This document shows positions 1,091-17,626 of a stretch of DNA of 24,441 bases, in pieces. Numbering within the stretch: the stretch's first letter is position 1; every line of letters starts with the position of its first letter. The translations under genes were made by a program, and so were the position numbers. Origin of the DNA: a virus. Under the pieces are notes generated by a model that was given only the letters and a program-made list of their open reading frames with translations, made no database searches and was not told the DNA's origin. The stretch lies in IMG/VR virus record IMGVR_UViG_3300025759_000669, positions 1-24,441 of that record, one strand, 5' to 3'.

Positions 1091-1434
1091 AATATTTCTT
1101 TTATCGGAATACAAATACCTTTACTAGTATTATTATCGCCTCCTCTTTTATCAAATTTAGTTCCTATATATTTTCTGCAAATATCTTTTAGTTTATCTGT
1201 TGCTATCAGTATTATTTTTTCTTTGCTTAATACAAATGCGTACCAGTCGCTTTGTGTTGTAGCAATTCCACTTGGTTTGTTTCTTGATTCATATTCAATA
1301 TATATATTACCAGTATCTTTAAATTGTAAATCTGTTTTAACTTCTATTTTTTTATTAGCTAATATATCGTTTAAATACTTTTCGCCTAACTGACCTAATT
1401 GTAAATCATATTTAAAATCGCTATTAAAATTCAT
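1087..1434 (-). CDS. PD-(D/E)XK nuclease-like protein (115 aa)
   Basis: Residues 11-35 read as helix LQLGQLGEKYLNDIL followed by KKIEVKTD, giving the E31-V-K33 core of a PD-(D/E)XK fold with E18 as the likely helix acid. A second strand IYIEYESR with SGIATTQSDWYAFVL matches the layout of small phage resolvase-like or restriction-like nucleases. It probably cuts or repairs DNA; the substrate is unknown. It starts in an ATGA overlap with the sigma-like gene and ends in another with the 43-aa gene, so it belongs to the same translated chain. Distinct from the nuclease at 199-612. Confidence 0.65.
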   Translation of the reverse strand: MNFNSDFKYDLQLGQLGEKYLNDILANKKIEVKTDLQFKDTGNIYIEYESRNKPSGIATTQSDWYAFVLSKEKIILIATDKLKDICRKYIGTKFDKRGGDNNTSKGICIPIKEIL

Positions 1435-1907
1435 AAATGCTCTTTTAGTTTTTGTTTTACTTTATTATAAGTATTGTATAATGAATAATAACTTATATCG
1501 CTCTTTCTTGATAGTTCGCTTATTGATTCTCCAGAGTTTATAATGTCAAATACTTTTGCATCATACCAACGCATCTCTTTCAATACCTTTTGTATTTTAC
1601 TATATGCTTCTTCATAATTCGCATTATCGTCTTGTGATATATCTATTCCTTCAAGCTCAACTAATTTTACTTTACATTTTTTTCTCATTAAATCAACCCA
1701 TAAACCCTTTAGTATTCTAAATACATAATAATAGTTTACATCTTCTTCATAACTAAAATCAATTCCTTTTTGTTGATTCTTAATTAATAACAAATACATT
1801 TCTTGTACTATATCTTCTACTTCAGTTTGTTTTAAACTTCCAAATGTAGATACTATATCAATCCATCTATCGTGTTTCTGATATGCTATTTCTACTAGTG
1901 TTTTCAA
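1431..1907 (-). CDS. Sigma-70-like transcription factor (phage)
   Basis: This 158-residue protein has the shape of a small ECF-type sigma factor. Residues about 28-72 resemble region 2 (TEVEDIVQEMYLLLI, then YYYVFRILKGLWVDLMRKK). An acidic linker follows, and residues about 110-158 form a helix-turn-helix region 4 (ISELSRKSDISYYSLYNTYNKVKQKL). It would redirect host RNA polymerase to phage promoters. The start is TTG, overlapping the stop of the helicase gene (TTGA), so the two are probably co-translated. A pure HTH regulator or small-terminase-like protein is the alternative, but the EDIVQEMYL signature favours sigma. The repeated leader at 12877, 15151 and 17593 is a possible target. Confidence 0.7.
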   Translation of the reverse strand: MKTLVEIAYQKHDRWIDIVSTFGSLKQTEVEDIVQEMYLLLIKNQQKGIDFSYEEDVNYYYVFRILKGLWVDLMRKKCKVKLVELEGIDISQDDNANYEEAYSKIQKVLKEMRWYDAKVFDIINSGESISELSRKSDISYYSLYNTYNKVKQKLKEHL

Positions 1908-2818
1908 AATGGTAAATTCATTTGTTCTATTATTGTACTGTTTATTGCTTGACTTTCTCCTATCTTAAATCCTACATTATTTATAATAGATTTAATTTTT
2001 ATAGGTGCGTCTATTGGTGTAGGTCGTCCTCCTGTATCAATCTCTTTAACTTTTCTAACGTGTATCATTGAATACATCCAGTCAGTAGGATGCTGAATAT
2101 ACCTATGAATACAAATAAAGTCATCTGCTCTATTAACAAACTTACCGCCTCCTTCTACATCACTAGCCATAGGTGGTATAGGGTGTCCTGCATAATCTTC
2201 ATTTTGATTATGCTTTTTTCTTAATGCTTCTGTAGCTGCGTGAGTACATAACCATATTGCTACATTATACTTTTTACAGAATACTCTAAATTCTGACGTA
2301 GCTTGATAATCGTAATCGTGACCTGAAATACCTTTTAACGTATCTCTGTCTTTGACTAGAGAATTATAAGGGTCAATTAAAAATCCGTCAAAGTGCCAAG
2401 CATCTTTAATAACAGTAGCCAAGTCAATAAGCGACCTATAAGTATGCAGCTCGTTACAATCAATAAATTTAAAGTGATTAAATATGAACTCTTGGTGTTT
2501 AGTAAATTCTTCATCTGATATTTTGTTTATAGGTTTGACTGACATAAACTCAATAAGTTTCTTAATAATGCTATAAGGTTCGTTCTCACTAGAAAATACA
2601 AGCCACTTAATATTATGCTTTATTGAATATAATAACATAAAAAATAAAGTAACTGTAGTTTTACCTGAATTGGCGTGTCCTAGTATAATATTAAAATTCC
2701 CAAACTTAAACCTAAAATATTGGTCTATATCTGGGAATCCTAAAGACAATCCTTCTTTGACTTTGCCAGTCCTGATATCGTGTATCTTACTTATCTGGTC
2801 ATCAAAATTAATCAGCAT
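1904..2818 (-). CDS. DnaB-like replicative helicase / RecA-fold ATPase
   Basis: This 304-residue ATPase has Walker A GHANSGKT at 47-54, an acidic SSENE stretch near 76-80 (probable catalytic Glu), Walker B FDGFLIDP ending in D149, and a WLCTHA motif near 189-194. Order and spacing match the C-terminal domain of DnaB-type helicases. The N-terminal primase-interacting domain of full DnaB is absent, as in some phage helicases. It should unwind DNA at phage forks. Its last residues are NLPF, echoing the DLPF end of the SSB-like protein encoded just upstream. It overlaps the upstream gene by 11 bases and the downstream sigma gene by 4. A recombination or partition ATPase is the alternative. Confidence 0.8.
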   Translation of the reverse strand: MLINFDDQISKIHDIRTGKVKEGLSLGFPDIDQYFRFKFGNFNIILGHANSGKTTVTLFFMLLYSIKHNIKWLVFSSENEPYSIIKKLIEFMSVKPINKISDEEFTKHQEFIFNHFKFIDCNELHTYRSLIDLATVIKDAWHFDGFLIDPYNSLVKDRDTLKGISGHDYDYQATSEFRVFCKKYNVAIWLCTHAATEALRKKHNQNEDYAGHPIPPMASDVEGGGKFVNRADDFICIHRYIQHPTDWMYSMIHVRKVKEIDTGGRPTPIDAPIKIKSIINNVGFKIGESQAINSTIIEQMNLPF

Positions 2819-4281: not shown

Positions 4282-4686
4282 TTACAAAGATAGTCGTTTA
4301 TTCTCTATTTCCAACTTATTTTTAAAGTATTCCACTTTTTCGTTCAGGTCAGTCATACTAAACTTTACTACTTCTTTTGACTTATTATAAAGTCGTTTAG
4401 AAAGACCTTTTGACTTTTTATCTAATGCTAAACTAAACTGATACTGACGACCATATCTAAAACGATTACAGTATTGACATTGAGCAGCTACGTTTCTTTC
4501 GTCCCAACGTACCGACATTTCTTTGCGAGATATAAAATGACCTGCGTCTAATTCGTTCCACTTAAACTCTCTTTGACAAGTTATACATTTACAGAAACCT
4601 TTTTTATCTGCATCTCTTTTGCGTATGTATTCGCTAAATATTCTGTCTAGTTTGTTTATAAGACCTTTACGACTAATCTTTCTCAT
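4282..4686 (-). CDS. ninG: NinG-like recombination endonuclease (HNH-type, zinc-binding)
   Basis: This 134-residue protein carries the NinG/Rap layout: a basic N-terminal helix, FCKCITCQREFKWNELDAGH (cysteines at 32, 34 and 37, H50), ISRKEMSVRWDERNVAAQC and QYCNRFRYG (C70, C73). The paired CxxC sites bind zinc and DAGHFISR is the family hallmark. Lambda NinG (Rap) promotes phage recombination by cutting branched DNA. It starts in an ATGA overlap with the 75-aa gene and is followed by a terminator, so it ends its transcript. Confidence 0.88.
   Translation of the reverse strand: MRKISRKGLINKLDRIFSEYIRKRDADKKGFCKCITCQREFKWNELDAGHFISRKEMSVRWDERNVAAQCQYCNRFRYGRQYQFSLALDKKSKGLSKRLYNKSKEVVKFSMTDLNEKVEYFKNKLEIENKRLSL
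4285..4314 (-). promoter_or_regulatory. Candidate Bacteroidetes-type promoter
   Basis: On the minus strand TTG at 4314-4312 is followed after 19 bases by TATCTTTG at 4292-4285. This matches the known Bacteroidetes -33 TTG / -7 TAnnTTTG arrangement. It overlaps the last codons and stop of ninG. In AT-rich DNA a chance match is possible. Confidence 0.4.
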
Positions 4687-4910
4687 TTGTCCATTGCTCT
4701 TAAAAACTGGTCGCCTGTTGCTTTGTCAAGAGTTTTAATAGCTAGATATATTTGTCTACTTTGTTTCTTAACTTCTAGTTTTTCTTTTTTTGTACTGTCA
4801 CTACCTAAATTAGCATATAACGTAGAATCCAATTCTAGCAACCTATCTATTTTGCCTTTGTCACTTACTCTTTTATAATTAAGTATTTTGTCTATCATAA
4901 ATGTTAACAT
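4683..4910 (-). CDS. Small phage protein upstream of NinG (71-75 aa)
   Basis: A helical protein containing KGKIDRLLELDSTLYANLGSDSTKKEKLEVKK and a C-terminal KTLDKATGDQFLRAMDK. The KIDRLLExDxxxYxNLGxDST pattern is one I associate with small phage proteins of unknown function. Two starts are possible: ATG at 4910 or ATG at 4898 (MIDKILN). A TATATTTG box at 4923-4916 would place a transcript start near 4910, which would favour 4898. The stop overlaps the ninG start (ATGA), so the pair is coupled. Confidence 0.7.
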   Translation of the reverse strand: MLTFMIDKILNYKRVSDKGKIDRLLELDSTLYANLGSDSTKKEKLEVKKQSRQIYLAIKTLDKATGDQFLRAMDK

Positions 4911-4914
4911 ATTG

Positions 4915-5070
4915 TCAAATATATAAAATTAGAATTAAAAGAAAAGAAAGAAAAAGGACAAAAAGAAAGAAAAGAAAAAGTCCCCCTAGAAAAACAAAAT
5001 TCAAATTTATCTGTTCCAACAAGCGTCCATCTTTATTAGGGTCTTGAAGTTTAGCTATAAGCGAAAACAA
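4915..5070 (-). CDS. Putative small membrane protein (51 aa, TTG start)
   Basis: The otherwise unexplained 170-base gap holds an open frame beginning at TTG: a soluble N-terminus with LQDPNKDGRLLEQINLNF, then about 25 very hydrophobic residues (LFLFFLFVLFLSFLLILILY), stop at 4915. It lies 9 bases after the 38-aa gene stop and 4 bases before the next ATG, exactly as a gene would in this packed operon. There is no ATG, and the hydrophobic stretch is encoded by a pure pyrimidine tract that would read as Phe/Leu by chance, so this call is tentative. If real, it is a single-span membrane protein of the lysis module. Confidence 0.4.
   Translation of the reverse strand: MFSLIAKLQDPNKDGRLLEQINLNFVFLGGLFLFFLFVLFLSFLLILILYI
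4937..4978. repeat. Perfect polypurine mirror repeat
   Basis: On the plus strand, A-runs of 4-4-3-5 separated by single G residues (4937-4955) are mirrored exactly after the spacer GGAC as runs of 5-3-4-4 (4960-4978). Homopurine mirror repeats are the sequence class able to form intramolecular triplex (H-DNA). It may simply reflect Phe/Leu codons in the overlapping 51-aa frame. GGAC and GTCC (4980-4983) could also pair as a weak terminator stem. Confidence 0.6.
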
Positions 5071-5727: not shown

Positions 5728-6185
5728 TATGTTATATCAATGTATTTAGTTTTGCCGTCATCTCTAACAGCTTTTAATATCTTGTTTCTGTTTTTATCTT
5801 CACTAACATAAGAAACGTGTATCCAGTCAGGATTATCTTCATTACCAAACTCCCATATCATTTGGTCAAAATCTAAATTCTCCTTTATGTAATTAAACAT
5901 CTCTTTATTTGTTTTGTGTCCGTATATATCGTCAATATCAATAGCACGTCCTTGACAATGTTGTGAGCGTGAAGAACCTCCTATAGCTTCATTTAAAGCT
6001 GTACTTCTGTAGAAGGAATTAATCTTTATAGGTCCTCCTACATATTCTCTTAAAGGTTCAAATACTTTTTCTGCTACTAACTTCATATTACTTAAACTAT
6101 CTCCATTAGGCGTATTATCTATACCTAATCGTAAAGCTGTAACGCTTTTAGTTGCTTCTTTTTCAGATATATGCTTACTAATCAT
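5727..6185 (-). CDS. Endolysin, peptidase M15 family
   Basis: A 152-residue zinc peptidase with KINSFYRSTALNEAIGG at 54-70, SQHCQGRAIDID at 74-85 (zinc ligands H76 and D83) and PDWIHVSY at 119-126 (D120, H123). These are the ligands of the M15 D-Ala-D-Ala / L-Ala-D-Glu peptidase fold (Peptidase_M15_3-like), which cleaves peptidoglycan stem peptides. There is no signal peptide, so release depends on the holin encoded immediately downstream. The start overlaps the thioredoxin-like gene by 8 bases. Confidence 0.85.
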   Translation of the reverse strand: MISKHISEKEATKSVTALRLGIDNTPNGDSLSNMKLVAEKVFEPLREYVGGPIKINSFYRSTALNEAIGGSSRSQHCQGRAIDIDDIYGHKTNKEMFNYIKENLDFDQMIWEFGNEDNPDWIHVSYVSEDKNRNKILKAVRDDGKTKYIDIT

Positions 6186-10756: not shown

Positions 10757-12505
10757 TTATTTAAAATTTGGGTGATGTCCGTTATTAGGCATATCTTTAG
10801 GTGCTATCTTTGCTTTCTTATGTCCTGCAGGAGTTGGCGCATAAGATTTAGGTATGCTATTCACTTCATCATAATTTTGTATTTTTTTCTTCATTGTTTT
10901 AGATTTTAACCTATACAATACCTCACTCCAATAATGACCGCAATTCACACCACCTTTATATTTGAATAAATCATAAGATTTGCCTTTATGTCCAAATGAC
11001 TTATTCACTCCTGCTCTACTTGCTTTGTCAATATCTTCTATTCTGTATACGACACCTCGACCACTTCTTGACATCATAATTCTACAGAACTGTCTTGATT
11101 TACCAGAAGAATATTTTTCATTGTATCGGTATCTCACTTTATATAGAGATTTATCTAAATAACTAAAACCTGACTTTTTAGAATCTATACTTTTCTTTTC
11201 TAAATTCTCTTGCTTTGATTCTATTAATCTTGCAGCCCATTCTTCTTCACTTTCGTTTTCTTCTTTATACTCTCTTGCATCTACTTCTTCCCATCTATTA
11301 GAAATAGTTTCGCCTCTTAATTCATCTAGTATAATATCAAATTCTTCATCTGTTAAATCTTTACTTAACTTTACTCCTGTTTCTTCTTCTCTTGTTTCTT
11401 CATCTTCTACATTGTCTAAATCAGTAAATTCAAGCGGTTGAAGCGTTTTAAAGTATAAATGCAACGAGATATTATTAAAAGCAAGTATTTGGTCAAAAGC
11501 ATCAATTAAAAGCGTCTGAAACGGTCTAATTACTGTATTGTCCATTAATAGAGTTGCTGTTTTTAATTCGTCTGCATTGTTTCCTAAACCTGACTGGTCT
11601 TTGATACCTAAAAGCATAGGAGAAACAACTCTGTGAGCTACCATTATCTTTTTTGTACTTTCTTCACTTAAGAATTGGTATTGTTGGTGTGCGTCTGATA
11701 ATTGTACAGGTTCTATTGATGCTGCAGTTTCAGCATTGTCATTAAAAGCTAATATGAACTTACCCGCATTACTTGACCCACTAAACTTTTGGTATATTCT
11801 TTGCTCGATTAATTCTCTCTCCTCTGCGTTAGGCGTTCCATTATTAAAATTAATCAACATTGAAGGCGACATACCATTCATAATGTTGTTTAAATGGAAA
11901 TTACTTATTTCTTCTTCTAATTCTGCGTATTGTAACCCTCCTTGATAATCTACAGGAGAATAATAATAAAATCCTGACTTATAAGGTTTGACATATAAAA
12001 TCTCTATAGATTCTTTAGACATACCAAATGCAGGTATTCTTAAAGGTTTGTCATTAGGTTTAATTGATGTCCAGTCCTTAAAATAAAAGTATGCTTCTAC
12101 ATCCCCGTCACTATTCGCCTTTTCAGCTCTTAATGTTTCTACTGGCATATGCTCTACTTGTGCTATCTTACTTCTGTCTTTGCTATAAATTACTTGTATC
12201 GCACATTGACCCATAAGTTTTAAATCATAAGCAAGTTTTCTAACACAGTCATTGTGAAATAAACTTACCATTTGTGCATATTGGTCTGGTTTTCTATTTG
12301 AATCTGTAGCGTCTAAACCTTTTCCAAATATCATAGCAGATATACCATTTATAACTGCATTGTTTGTAGGCGAACCATTATATCTGTCAATTAAGTATTG
12401 AAAGTAATTGTTGTCATCGCCATAAGATACCCACTCCTTATTCTTAACTTCTTTGATTTTAGGACTTGTATAGGTACTTAAATTTACTACTCTTAAATCG
12501 TTCAT
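10757..12505 (-). CDS. Portal protein with an extra C-terminal domain
   Basis: Residues 1 to about 380 show the portal pattern: an N-terminal WVSYGDDNNYFQYLIDRYNG, INGISAMIFGKGL, a central beta wing, and helices with FHLNNIMNGMSPSMLINF and RVVSPMLLGIKDQSGLGNNADELK. It forms the dodecameric DNA gate of the capsid. Residues about 370-450 are acidic linker, then a second module (KVRYRYNEKYSSGKSRQFCR, YRIEDIDKASRAGVNKSFG, LFKYKGGVNCGHYWSEVLYR) that I have seen in Bacteroidetes phage head proteins but cannot name. It starts in an ATGA overlap with the preceding gene. Confidence 0.8.
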   Translation of the reverse strand: MNDLRVVNLSTYTSPKIKEVKNKEWVSYGDDNNYFQYLIDRYNGSPTNNAVINGISAMIFGKGLDATDSNRKPDQYAQMVSLFHNDCVRKLAYDLKLMGQCAIQVIYSKDRSKIAQVEHMPVETLRAEKANSDGDVEAYFYFKDWTSIKPNDKPLRIPAFGMSKESIEILYVKPYKSGFYYYSPVDYQGGLQYAELEEEISNFHLNNIMNGMSPSMLINFNNGTPNAEERELIEQRIYQKFSGSSNAGKFILAFNDNAETAASIEPVQLSDAHQQYQFLSEESTKKIMVAHRVVSPMLLGIKDQSGLGNNADELKTATLLMDNTVIRPFQTLLIDAFDQILAFNNISLHLYFKTLQPLEFTDLDNVEDEETREEETGVKLSKDLTDEEFDIILDELRGETISNRWEEVDAREYKEENESEEEWAARLIESKQENLEKKSIDSKKSGFSYLDKSLYKVRYRYNEKYSSGKSRQFCRIMMSRSGRGVVYRIEDIDKASRAGVNKSFGHKGKSYDLFKYKGGVNCGHYWSEVLYRLKSKTMKKKIQNYDEVNSIPKSYAPTPAGHKKAKIAPKDMPNNGHHPNFK

Positions 12506-12876
12506 ATTATTATGTAATCGTTATCGTGTGAACCTGACGTGTCATCAAAATCATATTGACCATTATTTATATCGTAATAGTCGTTATTGTCTTGATTAAT
12601 TGTCTGGTCTGTACAAAATATTTTGTCTTTATAATAAATTAGCGTATCTACTAATCTATTTCTAACTTCCATTGTATAGAAACGCCCTTCCTTTAATACA
12701 GGGTCAAACGTAACTTGCAACTGTCTATAATTATCGGATGCTGCTGCTGTTACTTCGCCATTAAATACTTCTTCATTTGCAGCTTCGTCTTTTACTATTA
12801 ATTTGTAACTAGATGAAAAAGCTCTAGGTATAATGTCAATAGTTTGTTGTGAAGCACTTGTCGTTAATATCTTCAT
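12502..12876 (-). CDS. Beta-rich phage structural protein (124 aa)
   Basis: The 124 residues include strands SSYKLIVKDEAANEEVF, YRQLQVTFDPVLKEGRFYTM and LIYYKDKIFCTDQTINQ, then an Asp/Asn/Tyr-rich tail. FY-x-x-EV and IYxDKIFCTDQ resemble a small structural protein between portal and tail genes in Bacteroidetes phages; its exact place in the virion is unknown. It is preceded by a terminator and by one copy of the CGATATATA leader, so it probably begins its own transcript that continues into the portal gene (ATGA overlap). Confidence 0.6.
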   Translation of the reverse strand: MKILTTSASQQTIDIIPRAFSSSYKLIVKDEAANEEVFNGEVTAAASDNYRQLQVTFDPVLKEGRFYTMEVRNRLVDTLIYYKDKIFCTDQTINQDNNDYYDINNGQYDFDDTSGSHDNDYIII

Positions 12877-12910
12877 ATTTATATATCGAAATAATAACGC
12901 TATTTTGTAC
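12877..12910 (-). promoter_or_regulatory. Repeated late leader element, copy 3
   Basis: Minus-strand GTACAAAA (12910-12903), 14 bases, CGATATATA (12888-12880), 3 bases, then ATG at 12876. Spacing is identical to the copies at 15151 and 17593. It lies directly after the terminator at 12918-12946, as a promoter would. Confidence 0.6.
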
Positions 12911-12917
12911 TATATAT

Positions 12918-12946
12918 AAAAAAAAAGAGGTCATATAGACCCCTTT
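12918..12946 (-). terminator. Rho-independent terminator after the tail tube gene
   Basis: The minus strand forms AAAGGGGTC-TATAT-GACCTCTTT, a 9-pair stem containing one G-U pair, followed by nine T residues. The G-U pair is allowed only in the minus-strand transcript (A-C mismatch on the other), which fixes the direction. Confidence 0.8.
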
Positions 12947-12967
12947 CTTTACATTTAAAAGTTTCTA

Positions 12968-13510
12968 CTATCCGTTATTAGGAGTTGCAGGTGTAATTTG
13001 AGTTGCACTTGCATTTCCTGTTACGTCAGTTGAATCTGCTAGGAACGCAGGAGCAGAAATCTCTTGCGCTGTTAATGTAATTGAGAACTGTGAAGCATCT
13101 CCCATCGCAGCACCACTAGAGAAAGTTCCTCCAGTTACTTCGCATCCGTGTTCTCTACCTAACAAGAAGAAGTTTCCGTTATAATCTTCTACTACTACTT
13201 GAGGTCTACCTAAAGCAATAATTTTTAATTCTTCTTGTGTCGCACTATCTAATAATTGTAGTGTCATATTTAAGTTCGATTCAAAGAAAGTCGTACCGTT
13301 CTCTCTTGAACTGTTTACTGTAGTTTCTAAAGATGAATTTCCTTTTAAGTCATATTGATAAAAAGTTGGTGTTCCACCTATATCTACTTTTTCAGCGTCA
13401 GTTGCATTATCAGTAACAGTTAATCCATAGTCAGCAAAATATACTGTCTTTAGACCTCCTACTGAAGATTTACAAGGTATCGCTCTTCCTGTTGTTAATG
13501 TACAAGCCAT
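12968..13510 (-). CDS. Probable major tail tube protein
   Basis: A 180-residue beta-rich protein starting MACTLTTGRAIPCKSSVGGL, with VYFADYGL, then YDLKGNSSLETTVNSSRENG, TFFESNLNMTLQLLD, and LGREHGCEVTGGTFSSGAAM followed by a GDASQFSITLTAQE strand. This reads like a phage tail tube monomer: N-terminal loop, beta sandwich, and a late GxxxGDxxxFxxTLTA strand. It has a terminator on either side, suggesting separate control of a high-copy product. It is placed next to the capsid gene rather than next to the tape measure, so a head decoration protein is the alternative. Confidence 0.6.
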   Translation of the reverse strand: MACTLTTGRAIPCKSSVGGLKTVYFADYGLTVTDNATDAEKVDIGGTPTFYQYDLKGNSSLETTVNSSRENGTTFFESNLNMTLQLLDSATQEELKIIALGRPQVVVEDYNGNFFLLGREHGCEVTGGTFSSGAAMGDASQFSITLTAQEISAPAFLADSTDVTGNASATQITPATPNNG

Positions 13511-13525
13511 ATTTTATTCTTTTTT

Positions 13526-13560
13526 AAAAAAAAAAGGTAGGTAGTCAAAACCCACCTACC
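13526..13560 (-). terminator. Rho-independent terminator after the major capsid gene
   Basis: Minus strand GGTAGGT, 11-base loop, ACCTACC, then ten T residues. It lies about 30 bases beyond the capsid gene stop and before the tail tube start, probably attenuating rather than abolishing read-through because no promoter-like element was seen before the tube gene. Confidence 0.85.
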
Positions 13561-13587
13561 CTTTCTTTAGTTATACTTATTTATTTA

Positions 13588-14535
13588 TTATGCTAGAGTT
13601 AATAAAGCTAAATCTGAACCGATGCCATATTGAACACCTGCTGTAAATCTCATTACTACTCTTACATTTTGACTTCCGTCAAGGTCAGCCATATCTAATA
13701 ATTTAACTTCGTTATGGTCAGATAATAGACCAGTACCGAAATATAAGTTAGATTTTTGACCTGCTACGATATGGTCAGAAGGCATACCTGGTGCTAATAC
13801 AACTTCAATTCCATCGAAAGAAAGTGCATTACCTTGATTATACCATAAACCACCTCTGTTATCAACACCCGCAGCACCAACACCACCTGAAGCAAATCCG
13901 CCTAATTGTCTAATGTATGATTGCCAAGCGATAGTTGGAACATAAATTTTTAAATCTTCTTTTCCGTAAACTGCTGAAGGTAACGCATCAACAACATTCT
14001 CTAATAAAGTAATGATGTTAGAAGAACTAAAAGCAGTTTCACCACCGTTAGCAGCATCGTTTACGTCTGCATCTGCAGCAGCTAATACTGTGATACCGTC
14101 AAATTCTCCTGCGTTTCCGTTAACACCACCCCAGATGTTTTGCTCGTTTTTCTCTGCTACTAATCCTGCAACGTGTCCGATTAAGAAATCAGAAAACTTT
14201 GGTGGAAATTCGCTATATGCGCTATACCCCATAGAAATTGCTTCCCAGTCAGATACGAAATCTTTTTTACAAAGCTCAAGGTTTACTTGGAACTCCTCTG
14301 GTTGTAGGATTCTTTCAGTCAACGTTACTGTTGCTGTGTCTGTGAAATCACAAGTAGCGTCTTTGATTACGTTAGAATCAGTTGCTACTTTTTTGATTAC
14401 ATCTTTGTACTTAACATTCGGTTTAATCTCGATGTTACCGTTTTCTAATGTAGGTGAACTTAAAAGGGCAGCAGAAATATACTTCCCTGAAAATTCGCCT
14501 GCATATGTACTAGTTATACTTACTGTAGTCGCCAT
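13588..14535 (-). CDS. Major capsid protein (HK97 fold, probable)
   Basis: A 315-residue protein with a capsid-like plan: N-terminal arm (STYAGEFSGKYISAALL), a beta domain with VIKDATCDFTDTATVTLTER, a spine helix (FSDFLIGHVAGLVAEKNEQN), a loop with WGGVNGNAGEFDGITVLAA, helix NIITLLENVVDALPSAVYG, LKIYVPTIAWQSYIRQL, and a C-terminal strand block (VLAPGMPSDHIVAGQKSNLYFG, then VRVVMRFTAGVQYG). This resembles capsids of Bacteroidetes tailed phages. It follows a scaffold-like gene by 15 bases and is followed by a strong terminator. Confidence 0.82.
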   Translation of the reverse strand: MATTVSITSTYAGEFSGKYISAALLSSPTLENGNIEIKPNVKYKDVIKKVATDSNVIKDATCDFTDTATVTLTERILQPEEFQVNLELCKKDFVSDWEAISMGYSAYSEFPPKFSDFLIGHVAGLVAEKNEQNIWGGVNGNAGEFDGITVLAAADADVNDAANGGETAFSSSNIITLLENVVDALPSAVYGKEDLKIYVPTIAWQSYIRQLGGFASGGVGAAGVDNRGGLWYNQGNALSFDGIEVVLAPGMPSDHIVAGQKSNLYFGTGLLSDHNEVKLLDMADLDGSQNVRVVMRFTAGVQYGIGSDLALLTLA

Positions 14536-14550
14536 AATTATTTATTTATT

Positions 14551-15150
14551 TTAAAAGTTTGCTATTTTTTGTAATACTCTATCTCTTGTACTTAAGTTTC
14601 TTTTTTGTGCGTACAAGTAATTTTGTTTTTTTGTTTCTCCTTCTGGATTGTGCTTAATAGGTTCAGCAGCAGGTTTAGATAATTCTTCTTTTACTGCTTC
14701 TTCTACTTTCTCTTGCTCTGATAACATAGTAGTCATTGCAAGTCCGATTTCTTCTGCTATTTCTTGGTCTTTTAACTCAAGTTTAGCTTTTAAATCTTCA
14801 ATGATAGCTTTTAGTTCAGATAGTTCGTCTTTAGATGCGTATACTTCTTCTTTCATTTCTTCTTCTTCTGAAGTAGCTTCTTCTTCTTCTACTTCTTCTT
14901 CCATTTCTTTGATGTCAGAAATAATACCTTCTTCAACGACAAGAATTTTACCATCTTCAAGTGAATACTCTCCTGAAGGTACTGGTACTTTCTCATCTTC
15001 TGTAACTATAAAAACTTCATTATCTTTTTCAAACGCCTCTGCTTCTAAAACAGTTCCGTTTTCTAATTTCATTTGCTCAAGTTTAACTTCTTCTGAAAGT
15101 TCCACTCCTAACAAATTTTTTACTTGATTTAACATTTCTGTAGCTTTCAT
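14551..15150 (-). CDS. Acidic scaffolding/assembly protein
   Basis: This 199-residue protein has an N-terminal beta part (ENGTVLEAEAFEKDNEVFIV, then VPSGEYSLEDGKILVVEEG), a very acidic stretch near 80-105 (EMEEEVEEEEATSEEEEMKE), a helical coiled coil (ELSELKAIIEDLKAKLELKD) and a basic C-terminus. Acidic helix plus basic tail directly upstream of the capsid gene fits an internal scaffold. It starts right after a copy of the CGATATATA leader, so it may begin a capsid transcript. Confidence 0.7.
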   Translation of the reverse strand: MKATEMLNQVKNLLGVELSEEVKLEQMKLENGTVLEAEAFEKDNEVFIVTEDEKVPVPSGEYSLEDGKILVVEEGIISDIKEMEEEVEEEEATSEEEEMKEEVYASKDELSELKAIIEDLKAKLELKDQEIAEEIGLAMTTMLSEQEKVEEAVKEELSKPAAEPIKHNPEGETKKQNYLYAQKRNLSTRDRVLQKIANF

Positions 15151-15184
15151 ATATATATATCGTTTAAGGTTATTTATTTTGCAT
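15151..15184 (-). promoter_or_regulatory. Repeated late leader element, copy 2
   Basis: Minus-strand ATGCAAAA (15184-15177), 14 bases, CGATATATA (15162-15154), 3 bases, ATG at 15150. It lies in the 36-base gap between the coiled-coil gene and the scaffold gene, two bases after the upstream stop. Confidence 0.6.
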
Positions 15185-15186
15185 TT

Positions 15187-15600
15187 TTATAATACTCTAA
15201 AACTTTTCATATCAACGCCTAATACATCGATTTCATCCATTACTTGCTCTAATCTTGAATAACCTTCTATATTATTAGGAGATATACCTAATGCCTTTGC
15301 AGATTGAGCAGCATTTTGTATAATTTTCGATGCTTTTGCATAGAGTTGGTCTGCGTTTTGAGCTTCTTTTTTTATTTTGCTCTCTAATTTTTCTGCATCT
15401 TTGAACTCTTTTTCTACTCTTTTTTTAGTATCAAGTCCAACATTTCTTAAACTCTTAAGTTCTTCAATAGCGTCGTTAATTCTTCTAGTAGAACCTTTGA
15501 TGTCATCAACTATTGCTAAATCAACTTTTTGTGTTTCTAAATTTGTTTTATCTTCTTGAGATAATTTTTGATAGATTTTTTTTAATGTTCTTGTATCCAT
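15187..15600 (-). CDS. Coiled-coil virion-assembly-region protein (137 aa)
   Basis: Almost entirely helical and charged: NDAIEELKSLRNVGLDTKKR, VEKEFKDAEKLESKIKKEAQ, then a shorter domain ALGISPNNIEGYSRLEQVMD. The heptad pattern at 35-95 indicates a coiled coil. Its place between mini-protein and scaffold suggests a role in capsid assembly, but no family is recognised. Confidence 0.6.
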   Translation of the reverse strand: MDTRTLKKIYQKLSQEDKTNLETQKVDLAIVDDIKGSTRRINDAIEELKSLRNVGLDTKKRVEKEFKDAEKLESKIKKEAQNADQLYAKASKIIQNAAQSAKALGISPNNIEGYSRLEQVMDEIDVLGVDMKSFRVL

Positions 15601-15612
15601 TTTTATTTAATT

Positions 15613-15780
15613 TTATGATGTTCTATATATGTTTCCTATTCCTTGTGCGTGTAACGAGCCATCGCAACATTCTATACTATAAGTGTTCGTGTCCCAACAT
15701 AAACACGCTGTACGACCACCTTTTCTGCTTGATTTAGCAGGTATATAATTTACTTTTTGTCCTGTACTTGAATTACGCAT
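15613..15780 (-). CDS. Cys-rich conserved mini-protein (55 aa)
   Basis: Starting at ATG 15780 (MRNSSTGQKVNYIPAKSSRK), it has TACLCWDTNTYSIECCDGSL and AQGIGNI. Four cysteines (CxC at 36-38 and CC at 48-49 approximately) and the CLCWDTNTYSxxCCDGSLxAQGIG signature look strongly conserved in Bacteroidetes phages; function unknown. A longer frame to 15864 exists, but it lies inside the upstream gene, and 15780 gives an 8-base overlap. A disulfide or metal-stabilised structural protein is plausible. Confidence 0.7.
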   Translation of the reverse strand: MRNSSTGQKVNYIPAKSSRKGGRTACLCWDTNTYSIECCDGSLHAQGIGNIYRTS

Positions 15781-16402
15781 AGCTTTGTGTTTTTTGTATA
15801 AAGTATATAATGTCCCAAACTTGTGCAGTTCCGCCTGTAGCAGTAATCTTCCATTGACTACCATTGCTTACAAAATCTTCTGTTGCATAATATTGAAATA
15901 CTTGATGAAATTCGTGAGCAACATCATTACCTTTTGGAAATGGTATATCCACTCCTACTCTTTCATAAGGCGTACCATTAACAGAATCTAATTGTAATCT
16001 AATAAATGTTTGATTAGCATTTGCTGCTTGACATTTAAATACTACAGTTGCTACATATACATCGTTTTCATTATCTGCTAATACCTTTTCAGTTGTTGAA
16101 TTATAATAATCAATACCTGTATAACTTCTATATACAGTTGCTCCATTATTTGGCAATACTACTTCTGTGTCTAATGCTAAAGATAATTTACTTTCTGACG
16201 TATATTCTCCATCATCGTATCTTGTCCATCCTAGACCAGAGCCAGTACCAGATTGAGGATGTAACTTAACCCACTCTCCATTATATACTGTCCATACGCC
16301 ACTCTCTGTAGTAACAAATGCACCTTCTTCAATTTTATATTGATTTCTTATGACATCTGTATCGACATCTACTTGTACTTTATATGAAGTGTTTTTTATC
16401 AT
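15773..16402 (-). CDS. Beta-rich virion-type protein (209 aa)
   Basis: Taking ATG at 16402 (MIKNTSYKVQVDVDTDVIRN; ATGA overlap with the protease stop) rather than an upstream TTG. Residues 20-60 are a short beta piece with GVWTVYNGEWVKLHPQSG; residues 65-209 look like a jelly-roll (TRYDDGEYTSESKLSLALDT, NQTFIRLQLDSVNGTPYERV, TATGGTAQVWDIIYFIQKTQ). The IRLxLD and GxxAQVWDIIYFI strands resemble carbohydrate-binding or decoration folds on virions. Its placement in the capsid block suggests a head fibre or decoration protein; this is inference. Confidence 0.55.
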   Translation of the reverse strand: MIKNTSYKVQVDVDTDVIRNQYKIEEGAFVTTESGVWTVYNGEWVKLHPQSGTGSGLGWTRYDDGEYTSESKLSLALDTEVVLPNNGATVYRSYTGIDYYNSTTEKVLADNENDVYVATVVFKCQAANANQTFIRLQLDSVNGTPYERVGVDIPFPKGNDVAHEFHQVFQYYATEDFVSNGSQWKITATGGTAQVWDIIYFIQKTQSYA

Positions 16403-17592
16403 TTTATTGGTATGCAATTAGGTACTTCTTTTCCGTCTTTTATTTTCGTTCCATACTGCTCGTACCCTGCTTGACAAGGTGCTTTCAGTTCGTGATACTC
16501 ACAAGGCATATACCATATCTGTCCTTCAAAGTCGTGTTCGTGTACGCCCTCGCATCCTAAATCTATAGCTATCTCCTCTGCTCTTTCTTTTGATGAATAT
16601 GCTAATCTGTCGTCTATAATTGCAAAGTCATCATTTACTTTCATTGATGCTAATTCTATTTCTCCTAATTCTTTTAGTTTAGATTTGCTCCATCTTAAAC
16701 CTGCTTTTCCACCCCATAGTAAATATGAGATAGTTCCACACGCTTCTCTATCACTTTCATTATAATATTCTTCTGCTCTTGATAAATAAGAGTACATTCT
16801 CTTAATGGTTTCTTTTGAAATAGGTTTGCCTTGTGCTAATTGTTGCGCTCTAATCTTTCCTACATCTGTTGCGCATTTATTATTTACTTTCTTGTTTAAG
16901 TCAATACCCCTTTTAGCATTATTTTTCACACCACTTGGATAGTCACTATAACTTTCCATTATCATTTTCTTTCCGTTCTTATATCTCTTATCGTTTCTAA
17001 TAATACCTTTTACTTCTGACAATAATTCTTCTGCTTCAGCTTCTACATCTGCAAAGTCATTTATTTGTTCTTTAGGTCTTTCCATTTTGTCAGCAAAGTA
17101 ACCCTCAATACTAAATCCTTTAACCTTTCCTGTCTTTACATACTCGTTCCAAATATCTTCATTGTTTACTTTTACCGCTCCCATCCAAGTACCTATAGGT
17201 AAATTCATATCATACTTTCTTGACTTATCGTGTACTTCATCTTCTATAATCCACGATTCTACTAAAGACAAACCTTGTAAAGAGTGCTGATGCTCTAAAG
17301 TTGAATTGTTTTGGTTGCCTTTTTGTAAATAAAGTTGGGACGCTTTTAATACCGTGTCTTTTGAGAAGTATATATAATATTCATCTTCTCCGTTTCTGCG
17401 ATATATCGGTTTATTTGGTATTAATAAAGCTCCCATAAGAATACGTTTCTCTTTATTAATTTCTGCTAGTTTTATTTCTTGTGATTTTAATGCGACAAAA
17501 TCTTCTTCTATTGCAGGATTCTCTACTATACTAATCGCTTCTATTCCTGAAATCTCTTGGTCTTCGTCTAATATTAATTCGACTATTCTCAT
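16399..17592 (-). CDS. XkdF-like prohead protease with C-terminal extension
   Basis: The N-terminal 170 residues match the phage prohead protease (PBSX XkdF-type): GIEAISIVENPAIEEDFVAL, LMGALLIPNKPIYRR, YYIYFSKDTVL, TLEHQHSLQGLSLVESW, YDMNLPIGTWMGAVKV and GKVKGFSIEGYF. H101 in TLEH and S161 in GFSIEG are the likely catalytic pair. Residues about 215-310 form a separate module (YPSGVKNNAKRGIDLNKKVN, MYSYLSRAEEYYNESDREAC, GTISYLLWGGKAGLRWSKSK), followed by LAYSSKERAEEIAIDLGCEG and a Cys-containing end with EVPNCIPIK. It would mature the capsid by cutting scaffold and capsid subunits. A CGATATATA leader precedes it. Confidence 0.75.
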   Translation of the reverse strand: MRIVELILDEDQEISGIEAISIVENPAIEEDFVALKSQEIKLAEINKEKRILMGALLIPNKPIYRRNGEDEYYIYFSKDTVLKASQLYLQKGNQNNSTLEHQHSLQGLSLVESWIIEDEVHDKSRKYDMNLPIGTWMGAVKVNNEDIWNEYVKTGKVKGFSIEGYFADKMERPKEQINDFADVEAEAEELLSEVKGIIRNDKRYKNGKKMIMESYSDYPSGVKNNAKRGIDLNKKVNNKCATDVGKIRAQQLAQGKPISKETIKRMYSYLSRAEEYYNESDREACGTISYLLWGGKAGLRWSKSKLKELGEIELASMKVNDDFAIIDDRLAYSSKERAEEIAIDLGCEGVHEHDFEGQIWYMPCEYHELKAPCQAGYEQYGTKIKDGKEVPNCIPIK

Positions 17593-17626
17593 AATTATAT
17601 ATCGTTTATTAAATTAAATTTTGCAT
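17593..17626 (-). promoter_or_regulatory. Repeated late leader element, copy 1
   Basis: Minus-strand ATGCAAAA (17626-17619), 14 bases, CGATATATA (17604-17596), 3 bases, ATG at 17592. The first box abuts the tape-measure stop codon. Confidence 0.6.

Follow-up and report, generated by a model that had tools for sequence, protein, structure and literature searches.

Phages that transcribe their late genes with a sigma factor of their own have already been established in phiEco32 and 7-11, with other promoter sequences and in other hosts (PMC8948821). In Salmonella phage 7-11 the phage sigma SaPh711_gp47 acts on the host RNA polymerase (RNAP) and reads bipartite late promoters (GTAAtg-16-aCTA), which stand in eight copies upstream of late genes and differ in sequence between related phages with distant sigmas; in phiEco32 the middle and late promoters depend on gp36 and consist of a single element (tAATGTAtA) with no -35 box, transcription starting 6-8 bp downstream of it (PMC8948821). 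The late promoters of phiKZ place an ATG at the start site, which they overlap (T-3ATG+1), but are read by the phage's own multisubunit RNAP and share only the motif TATG (PMC7598289). Here we analyse a two-box leader that precedes three virion genes in virus record IMGVR_UViG_3300025759_000669, the whole of which, 24,441 bases, we refer to as the window. From comparison of sequences we consider it highly probable that this leader is a phage late promoter read by a phage-encoded sigma factor of the extracytoplasmic function (ECF) type, and that transcription starts on the A of the ATG to give leaderless late mRNAs.

The whole window contains exactly three matches to CAAAAT-N13-CGATATATA-N3-ATG, all on the minus strand (12874-12907, 15148-15181 and 17590-17623), whereas 100 dinucleotide-preserving shuffles contained none; CGATATATA by itself occurs four times, the fourth at 5923-5931 with neither the first box nor an ATG. 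In copy 1 (17590..17623) CAAAAT at 17623-17618 and CGATATATA at 17604-17596 lead to the protease ATG at 17592-17590, in copy 2 (15148..15181) the boxes at 15181-15176 and 15162-15154 lead to the scaffold ATG at 15150-15148, and in copy 3 (12874..12907) those at 12907-12902 and 12888-12880 lead to the pre-portal ATG at 12876-12874. The predicted transcription start sites (+1) are thus 17592, 15150 and 12876, and the three copies are kept in relatives before proteases beginning MRIVEL or MKIVEL, scaffolds beginning MKATE or MKPMEM, and proteins beginning MK(I/V)LTTS, respectively. The spacers and the downstream genes differ among the copies, which rules out simple duplication of the leader, and a chance match in AT-rich DNA is ruled out by the shuffles and by the scans of relatives given below. 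A preliminary description of this DNA had already recognized the strictly spaced leader with its differing spacers (its two notations, CAAAA-N14 and CAAAAT-N13, denote the same spacing) and had asked for the shuffle comparison; the strict distance to the ATG that it reported holds within the phage's own group, but varies in distant relatives.

As in phiEco32 and 7-11, several near-identical copies stand before late operons, three in the window and about 4-6 in near-whole relatives. The sequence differs from that of 7-11, a phage of a gammaproteobacterial host for which leaderless mRNAs are unmentioned (PMC8948821), and the promoter in the window is locked to the start codon. Unlike the single element of phiEco32, both boxes are conserved and the sigma factor has a region-4-like domain, and in place of the TATG of phiKZ there are two extended boxes and a sigma. 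The ECF promoters of flavobacteria (SM6 in Flavobacterium psychrophilum) likewise have CG(T) in the -10 element, but they serve a host regulon, that of type IX secretion, whereas in the phage box the CG is followed by (A/T)TATATA and an AAAAT box lies upstream (PMC9723704). In a literature search that was short on subscription journals we found no description of late promoters of flavobacterial phages or of a sigma-driven leaderless late regulon.

When IMG/VR was scanned for exact copies of the two boxes, with no ATG required, at least 119 stretches were returned. Among the matches listed, which include the window's three, 133 of 161 box pairs have an ATG exactly 3 nucleotides (nt) after box 2, and these ATGs start homologues of the protease, scaffold and pre-portal genes; the remainder are mostly isolated matches with no gene start behind them. 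The scan of relatives proposed in the preliminary description accordingly led back to the same three gene families. Of 25 CGA-type matches in contigs outside the family, 24 are not close to any gene start. Across 36 dissimilar sites the profile reads YAAAAW from -31 to -26, only A or T from -16 to -14, CG at -12/-11 and then (A/T)TATATA, with T at -1 in 35 of the 36.

A two-box profile blind to the ATG was also run over ten long relatives (G001-G010, loci L205-L224). Nine of them carry about 4-6 strong sites each, nearly all before late genes, namely those for the protease, the scaffold, the pre-portal protein, a 216-residue protein at the head of the tail operon, a 120-residue protein and a terminase-small-like protein; the last begins MDKRKNNGG..., and its homologue in the cultured Nonlabens phage P12024S lies directly before the large terminase. 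The distance from box to box is essentially constant across these genomes. The distance to the ATG, on the other hand, measured from the C of box 2, takes values of 10, 12, 13, 14, 15 or 16 nt in CGTTATATA relatives, and at the terminase-small-like gene both boxes lie 31-49 nt upstream of the ATG, leaving leaders of about 20 nt or more. Given that the box spacing is constant while the distance to the ATG is variable, the two boxes appear to be the functional unit, with the ATG placed beside it rather than forming part of it.

Promoters whose ATG lies elsewhere allow the start site to be predicted separately from the start codon. Among dissimilar promoters in which 35 nt or more separate the ATG from the first base of box 1, a purine (+1) follows the C of box 2 at 12 nt in 42 of 43 and the base before that position is T (-1) in 38 of 43, and the flanking positions are much less constrained. 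Sites with CG at the first two positions of box 2 contribute 31 of 32 purines and 27 of 32 Ts, and sites with TT there 11 of 11 and 11 of 11. A T followed by a purine is a normal initiator. With +1 at this step box 2 begins at -12, in agreement with the -10 element of sigmaE, which spans -12 to -10 (PMC7598289), and with the flavobacterial sigmaA box, which spans -12 to -5 (PMC9723704). Where the ATG itself stands at +1, 87 of 87 CG-type sites have T at -1, compared with 40% of the other genes in these phages. The predicted +1, which is 12 nt after the C of CGATATATA and 4 nt after its last A, coincides in each of the three window genes with the A of the ATG, so that leaderless late mRNAs are predicted. 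Of the mRNAs mapped in F. psychrophilum only 5.5% are leaderless (PMC9723704), and phage transcripts were remarked to be often leaderless in a study of giant phages (PMC5312081).

The alternative that survives best retains the phage sigma and the late promoter, but has transcription start a few nt upstream of the ATG or inside the first codon, giving a near-leaderless or heterogeneous 5' end. We regard it as improbable, though worth keeping in mind: start choice by bacterial RNAP is often spread over several bases, and the relatives tolerate an ATG at 12-16 nt, so that leaders of 0-4 nt are evidently accepted, but the T(-1)/R(+1) step keeps sharply to one position also in promoters free of any constraint from an ATG.

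A candidate reader of the boxes is encoded on the minus strand at 1431..1907. Its product, of 158 residues, comprises only regions 2 and 4 and falls in the range of about 150-200 residues that characterizes ECF sigmas. It aligns with the NCBIfam family sigma70-ECF over positions 25-165 of 165 (1.2e-6), BLASTP finds it homologous to P12024S_33 (3e-10), which in turn matches Pfam Sigma70_r2, and the best PDB matches of its AlphaFold2 model (predicted local distance difference test, 85.6) are ECF sigmas, including M. tuberculosis SigL and SigH, E. coli SigE, and SigW; taken as a single domain, it matches region 2 of sigmaE with a template modelling score (TM-score) of 0.53. A tblastn search of cultured phages with the window sigma gave no match. 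IMG/VR holds at least 595 relatives of the protein. Of the 12 family records tested all but a 22-kb fragment have the gene, those over 24 kb included, and two long records with a chance match to the motif are without it. The preliminary description, whose late promoter is supported here, had missed this gene and its match with the boxes.

The sigma and box 2 change together. In the L200/G010 clade the same set of late genes retains box 1, a TATATA in the same register and the T(-1)A(+1) step, with TT in place of CG (GTTTATATATTA). We compared region 2.4 of the sigma with the bases at -12/-11 across sigma-bearing contigs, in which sites were found by regular expression; many were missed by it and hence unscored. 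D-L-x-R-K goes with CG (48 sites), N-(I/T/V)-x-K-K with TT (35 sites, none CG) and (S/A/Q)-(F/Y)-L-R with CT (10 sites, none CG, one contig being counted although its residues were not aligned). Apparent exceptions with AT, AA, AG or GC are mostly out-of-register or far-upstream matches of the regular expression, as judged by eye from the sequences. The deeply branching sigma of P12024S, with D-E-L-R-R, goes with CG. In a maximum-likelihood tree the TT and the CT sigmas each form one clade (supports 99/99 and 100/98).

These observations bear on the possibility that the promoter is instead read by a host ECF sigma, or by the host sigmaA together with a phage activator bound at box 1. Flavobacteria do have several ECF sigmas, and the SM6 box of F. 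psychrophilum has CGT at -10 (PMC9723704). However, the box 2 dinucleotide shifts in step with region 2.4 of the phage sigma, the sigma gene is conserved together with the motif, and box 2 is not the host TAnnTTTG, as the preliminary description had also remarked. The sigmaA box as such is ruled out, none of the 49 matches to TAnnTTTG in the window falling in the three leaders, and we consider reading by a host sigma unlikely.

Less likely still is an element acting in translation, a ribosome- or repressor-binding site in the leader RNA that would coordinate synthesis of the virion proteins. It would account for the fixed distance to the ATG in the window's own group, where 91 of 95 unique sites with a gene start show it. 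On the other hand, the same boxes stand far from the ATG before other late genes of relatives, in distant relatives the distance to the ATG varies while that between the boxes is constant, the leader RNA is not structured beyond shuffles (z -1.4 to +0.8) and box 2 co-varies with the sigma. Given the variable ATG distance, the longer leaders and the ordinary folding, we rejected a translation enhancer or RNA structure; of the two options in the preliminary description, the comparative evidence thus disfavours the translation enhancer, in view also of the leaders of at least 20 nt in relatives, and favours the late promoter with possibly near-leaderless mRNA. A promoter of a phage-encoded single-subunit RNAP, for which the fixed distance to +1 would also be typical, as in T7-like enzymes, can practically be dismissed, since two boxes 19 nt apart fit a sigma and not a contiguous T7-type promoter, the annotation of P12024S includes no polymerase, and RNA_pol (PF00940) has no match in the window, the ten relatives or P12024S, a weak argument in that control genomes gave none either.

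P12024S and P12024L, phages of Nonlabens (Persicivirga), are cultured relatives of the window phage. The link to P12024S was made through the portal (36% identity) and the capsid (27%), gene position and BLASTP. A scan of its genome with the window motif found no site before a gene, but reading its gene starts revealed leaders of the form AAACAAA...CGTTAATATA before 3031, 5412, 23961, 25201 and 26802, and a variant before 179. The C of the CG lies exactly 12 nt before the ATG at six genes and 11 nt before it at one more (21280), and these are the only occurrences of CGTTA within 45 nt upstream of the 59 annotated starts of P12024S. The protease gene (179), the pre-portal gene (3031, by position) and the tail gene (26802) of this phage have counterparts in the window's group. 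P12024S thus has analogous leaders and a homologous sigma gene, but the box sequences are different and the box spacing is 1-2 nt shorter. In the literature searched we found no description of these promoters. From these relatives the host of the window phage is probably a member of the Bacteroidota; a profile search of genome contigs with the sigma alignment, for a prophage link to a host, confirmed no relative.

Several points weigh against a late promoter read by this sigma. The sigma scores 28.3 bits against the curated cut-off of 42.9 for sigma70-ECF, and none of 12 records exceeds that cut-off; on its sequence, the protein is a divergent relative of the ECF sigmas rather than a standard member. 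Over the full length its TM-score to ECF sigmas is only about 0.4, the relative placement of the two domains being uncertain. Since the TT and CT sigmas are each a single clade, the association of sigma and box amounts to two independent co-changes and not dozens, related contigs not being independent. In a few relatives the ATG lies at 10 rather than 12 nt, which puts the start codon upstream of the predicted +1. Finally, a terminator-like hairpin at 13557-13535 on the minus strand precedes the 13510 gene, where there is no motif, so that adjacency to a terminator is by itself a weak argument.

If the late-promoter interpretation is correct, the host sigma would transcribe a run of early and middle genes that includes the phage sigma, which is a guess, given that TAnnTTTG is only mildly enriched in the window, with 49 matches. 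The phage sigma would then replace the host sigma on the host RNAP, its region 4 reading box 1 ((C/T)AAAAT, -31 to -26) and its region 2 reading box 2 (CGATATATA, -12 to -4). Transcription would begin at the T(-1)/A(+1) initiator, which follows the C of box 2 by 12 nt, and the protease, the scaffold and capsid, and the pre-portal and portal proteins would be expressed, presumably late, from leaderless mRNAs, which would suit a host lineage without Shine-Dalgarno initiation.

A broader proposal, which we offer tentatively as the less likely case, is that the late programme runs mostly through leaderless mRNAs as a switch that bypasses the leader-dependent initiation of the host, with region 2.4 acting as a specificity code for -12/-11 (D-x-x-R with CG, N-x-x-K with TT, S/A/Q-x-L-R with CT). 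The sigma would then set +1 on the start codon, and late messages may perhaps be favoured when host translation changes in infection.

The sigma gene lies directly downstream of a DnaB-helicase-like gene (1904..2818, minus strand; weak match, 5.4e-5) in the early/middle gene run. Within the window TATATTTG occurs at 4916-4923 on the minus strand, 5 nt upstream of the ATG at 4910, and may mark a host-type promoter, near-leaderless as well, for the genes that lead up to the sigma.

All genes behind the three copies are on the minus strand. Copy 1 is followed by a head maturation protease of 397 residues (16399..17592; Pfam Peptidase_S78_2, 2.2e-13). Copy 2 is followed by a scaffold-like protein of 199 residues (14551..15150), which matches the C-terminal part of phrog_24921 (residues 206-338 of 349), the protease matching its N-terminal part, and then by a major-capsid-like protein (13588..14535), a homologue of P12024S_02 that owes its name to its position. 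Behind copy 3 lie the pre-portal gene (12502..12876), conserved in relatives and directly before the portal, and the portal gene itself (10757..12505; phrog_33693, 6.9e-112). These matches bear out the protease and scaffold calls of the preliminary description; its third gene does adjoin the portal, but the product of this 12876 gene is itself unassigned. In the scaffold leader, here (15172-15184, minus strand) and in relatives, box 1 almost always has AAAAATG in front, which on read-through transcripts creates a tiny reading frame (ATG CAA AAT ... TAA) overlapping the promoter.

A hairpin of 13 pairs followed by a T-run, resembling an intrinsic terminator (12920..12950, minus strand), ends about 12 nt before copy 3, where a terminator had been reported previously; the argument drawn from it is weakened by the second hairpin with its motif-less gene. 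Relatives have a T-run at the same place before the pre-portal gene, and also before the gene for the 216-residue protein, and T-runs directly before two operon heads fit a new transcript starting there without being proof of it. The hairpin at 13535-13557 lies between the capsid-like and 13510 genes, and may be a partial terminator that sets an excess of capsid.

Three further features were seen in relatives. Terminase-small-like genes (MDKRKNNGG; L131, L139, L155, L211 and similar) have a conserved palindrome (ATTGATTAATCAAT or ATTGAATAAACAAT) in their leader, which is about 20-37 nt long, and often a second TCAA(T) beside the ATG; the palindrome could serve as an operator or as a small RNA switch, and two instances of the leader folded alone were no more stable than shuffles. 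At ParB-like genes in L177, L182 and L217:4813 only 10 nt lead from the C of box 2 to the ATG, which places it upstream of the predicted start site; either transcription begins 2 nt earlier in these cases or the genes use another start codon. G001 (L205, box 2 at 4651 and 8440) contains the pre-portal promoter and gene start (MKKLTTSASS) twice, 3.8 kb apart, by either an assembly duplication or a real repeat.

The proposed promoter would make the late regulon of a large, mostly uncultured group of marine phages readable from sequence, and offers a function for the sigma-like family represented by the window gene. The CG, TT and CT pairs of sigma and -10 element form a natural series for the question of how ECF sigmas choose bases. 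The cultured phages P12024S and P12024L make the proposal testable now. If the start sites are confirmed, it would be a phage sigma, and not a ribosome-binding site, that decides where translation of major virion genes begins, in a phylum that does without Shine-Dalgarno initiation.

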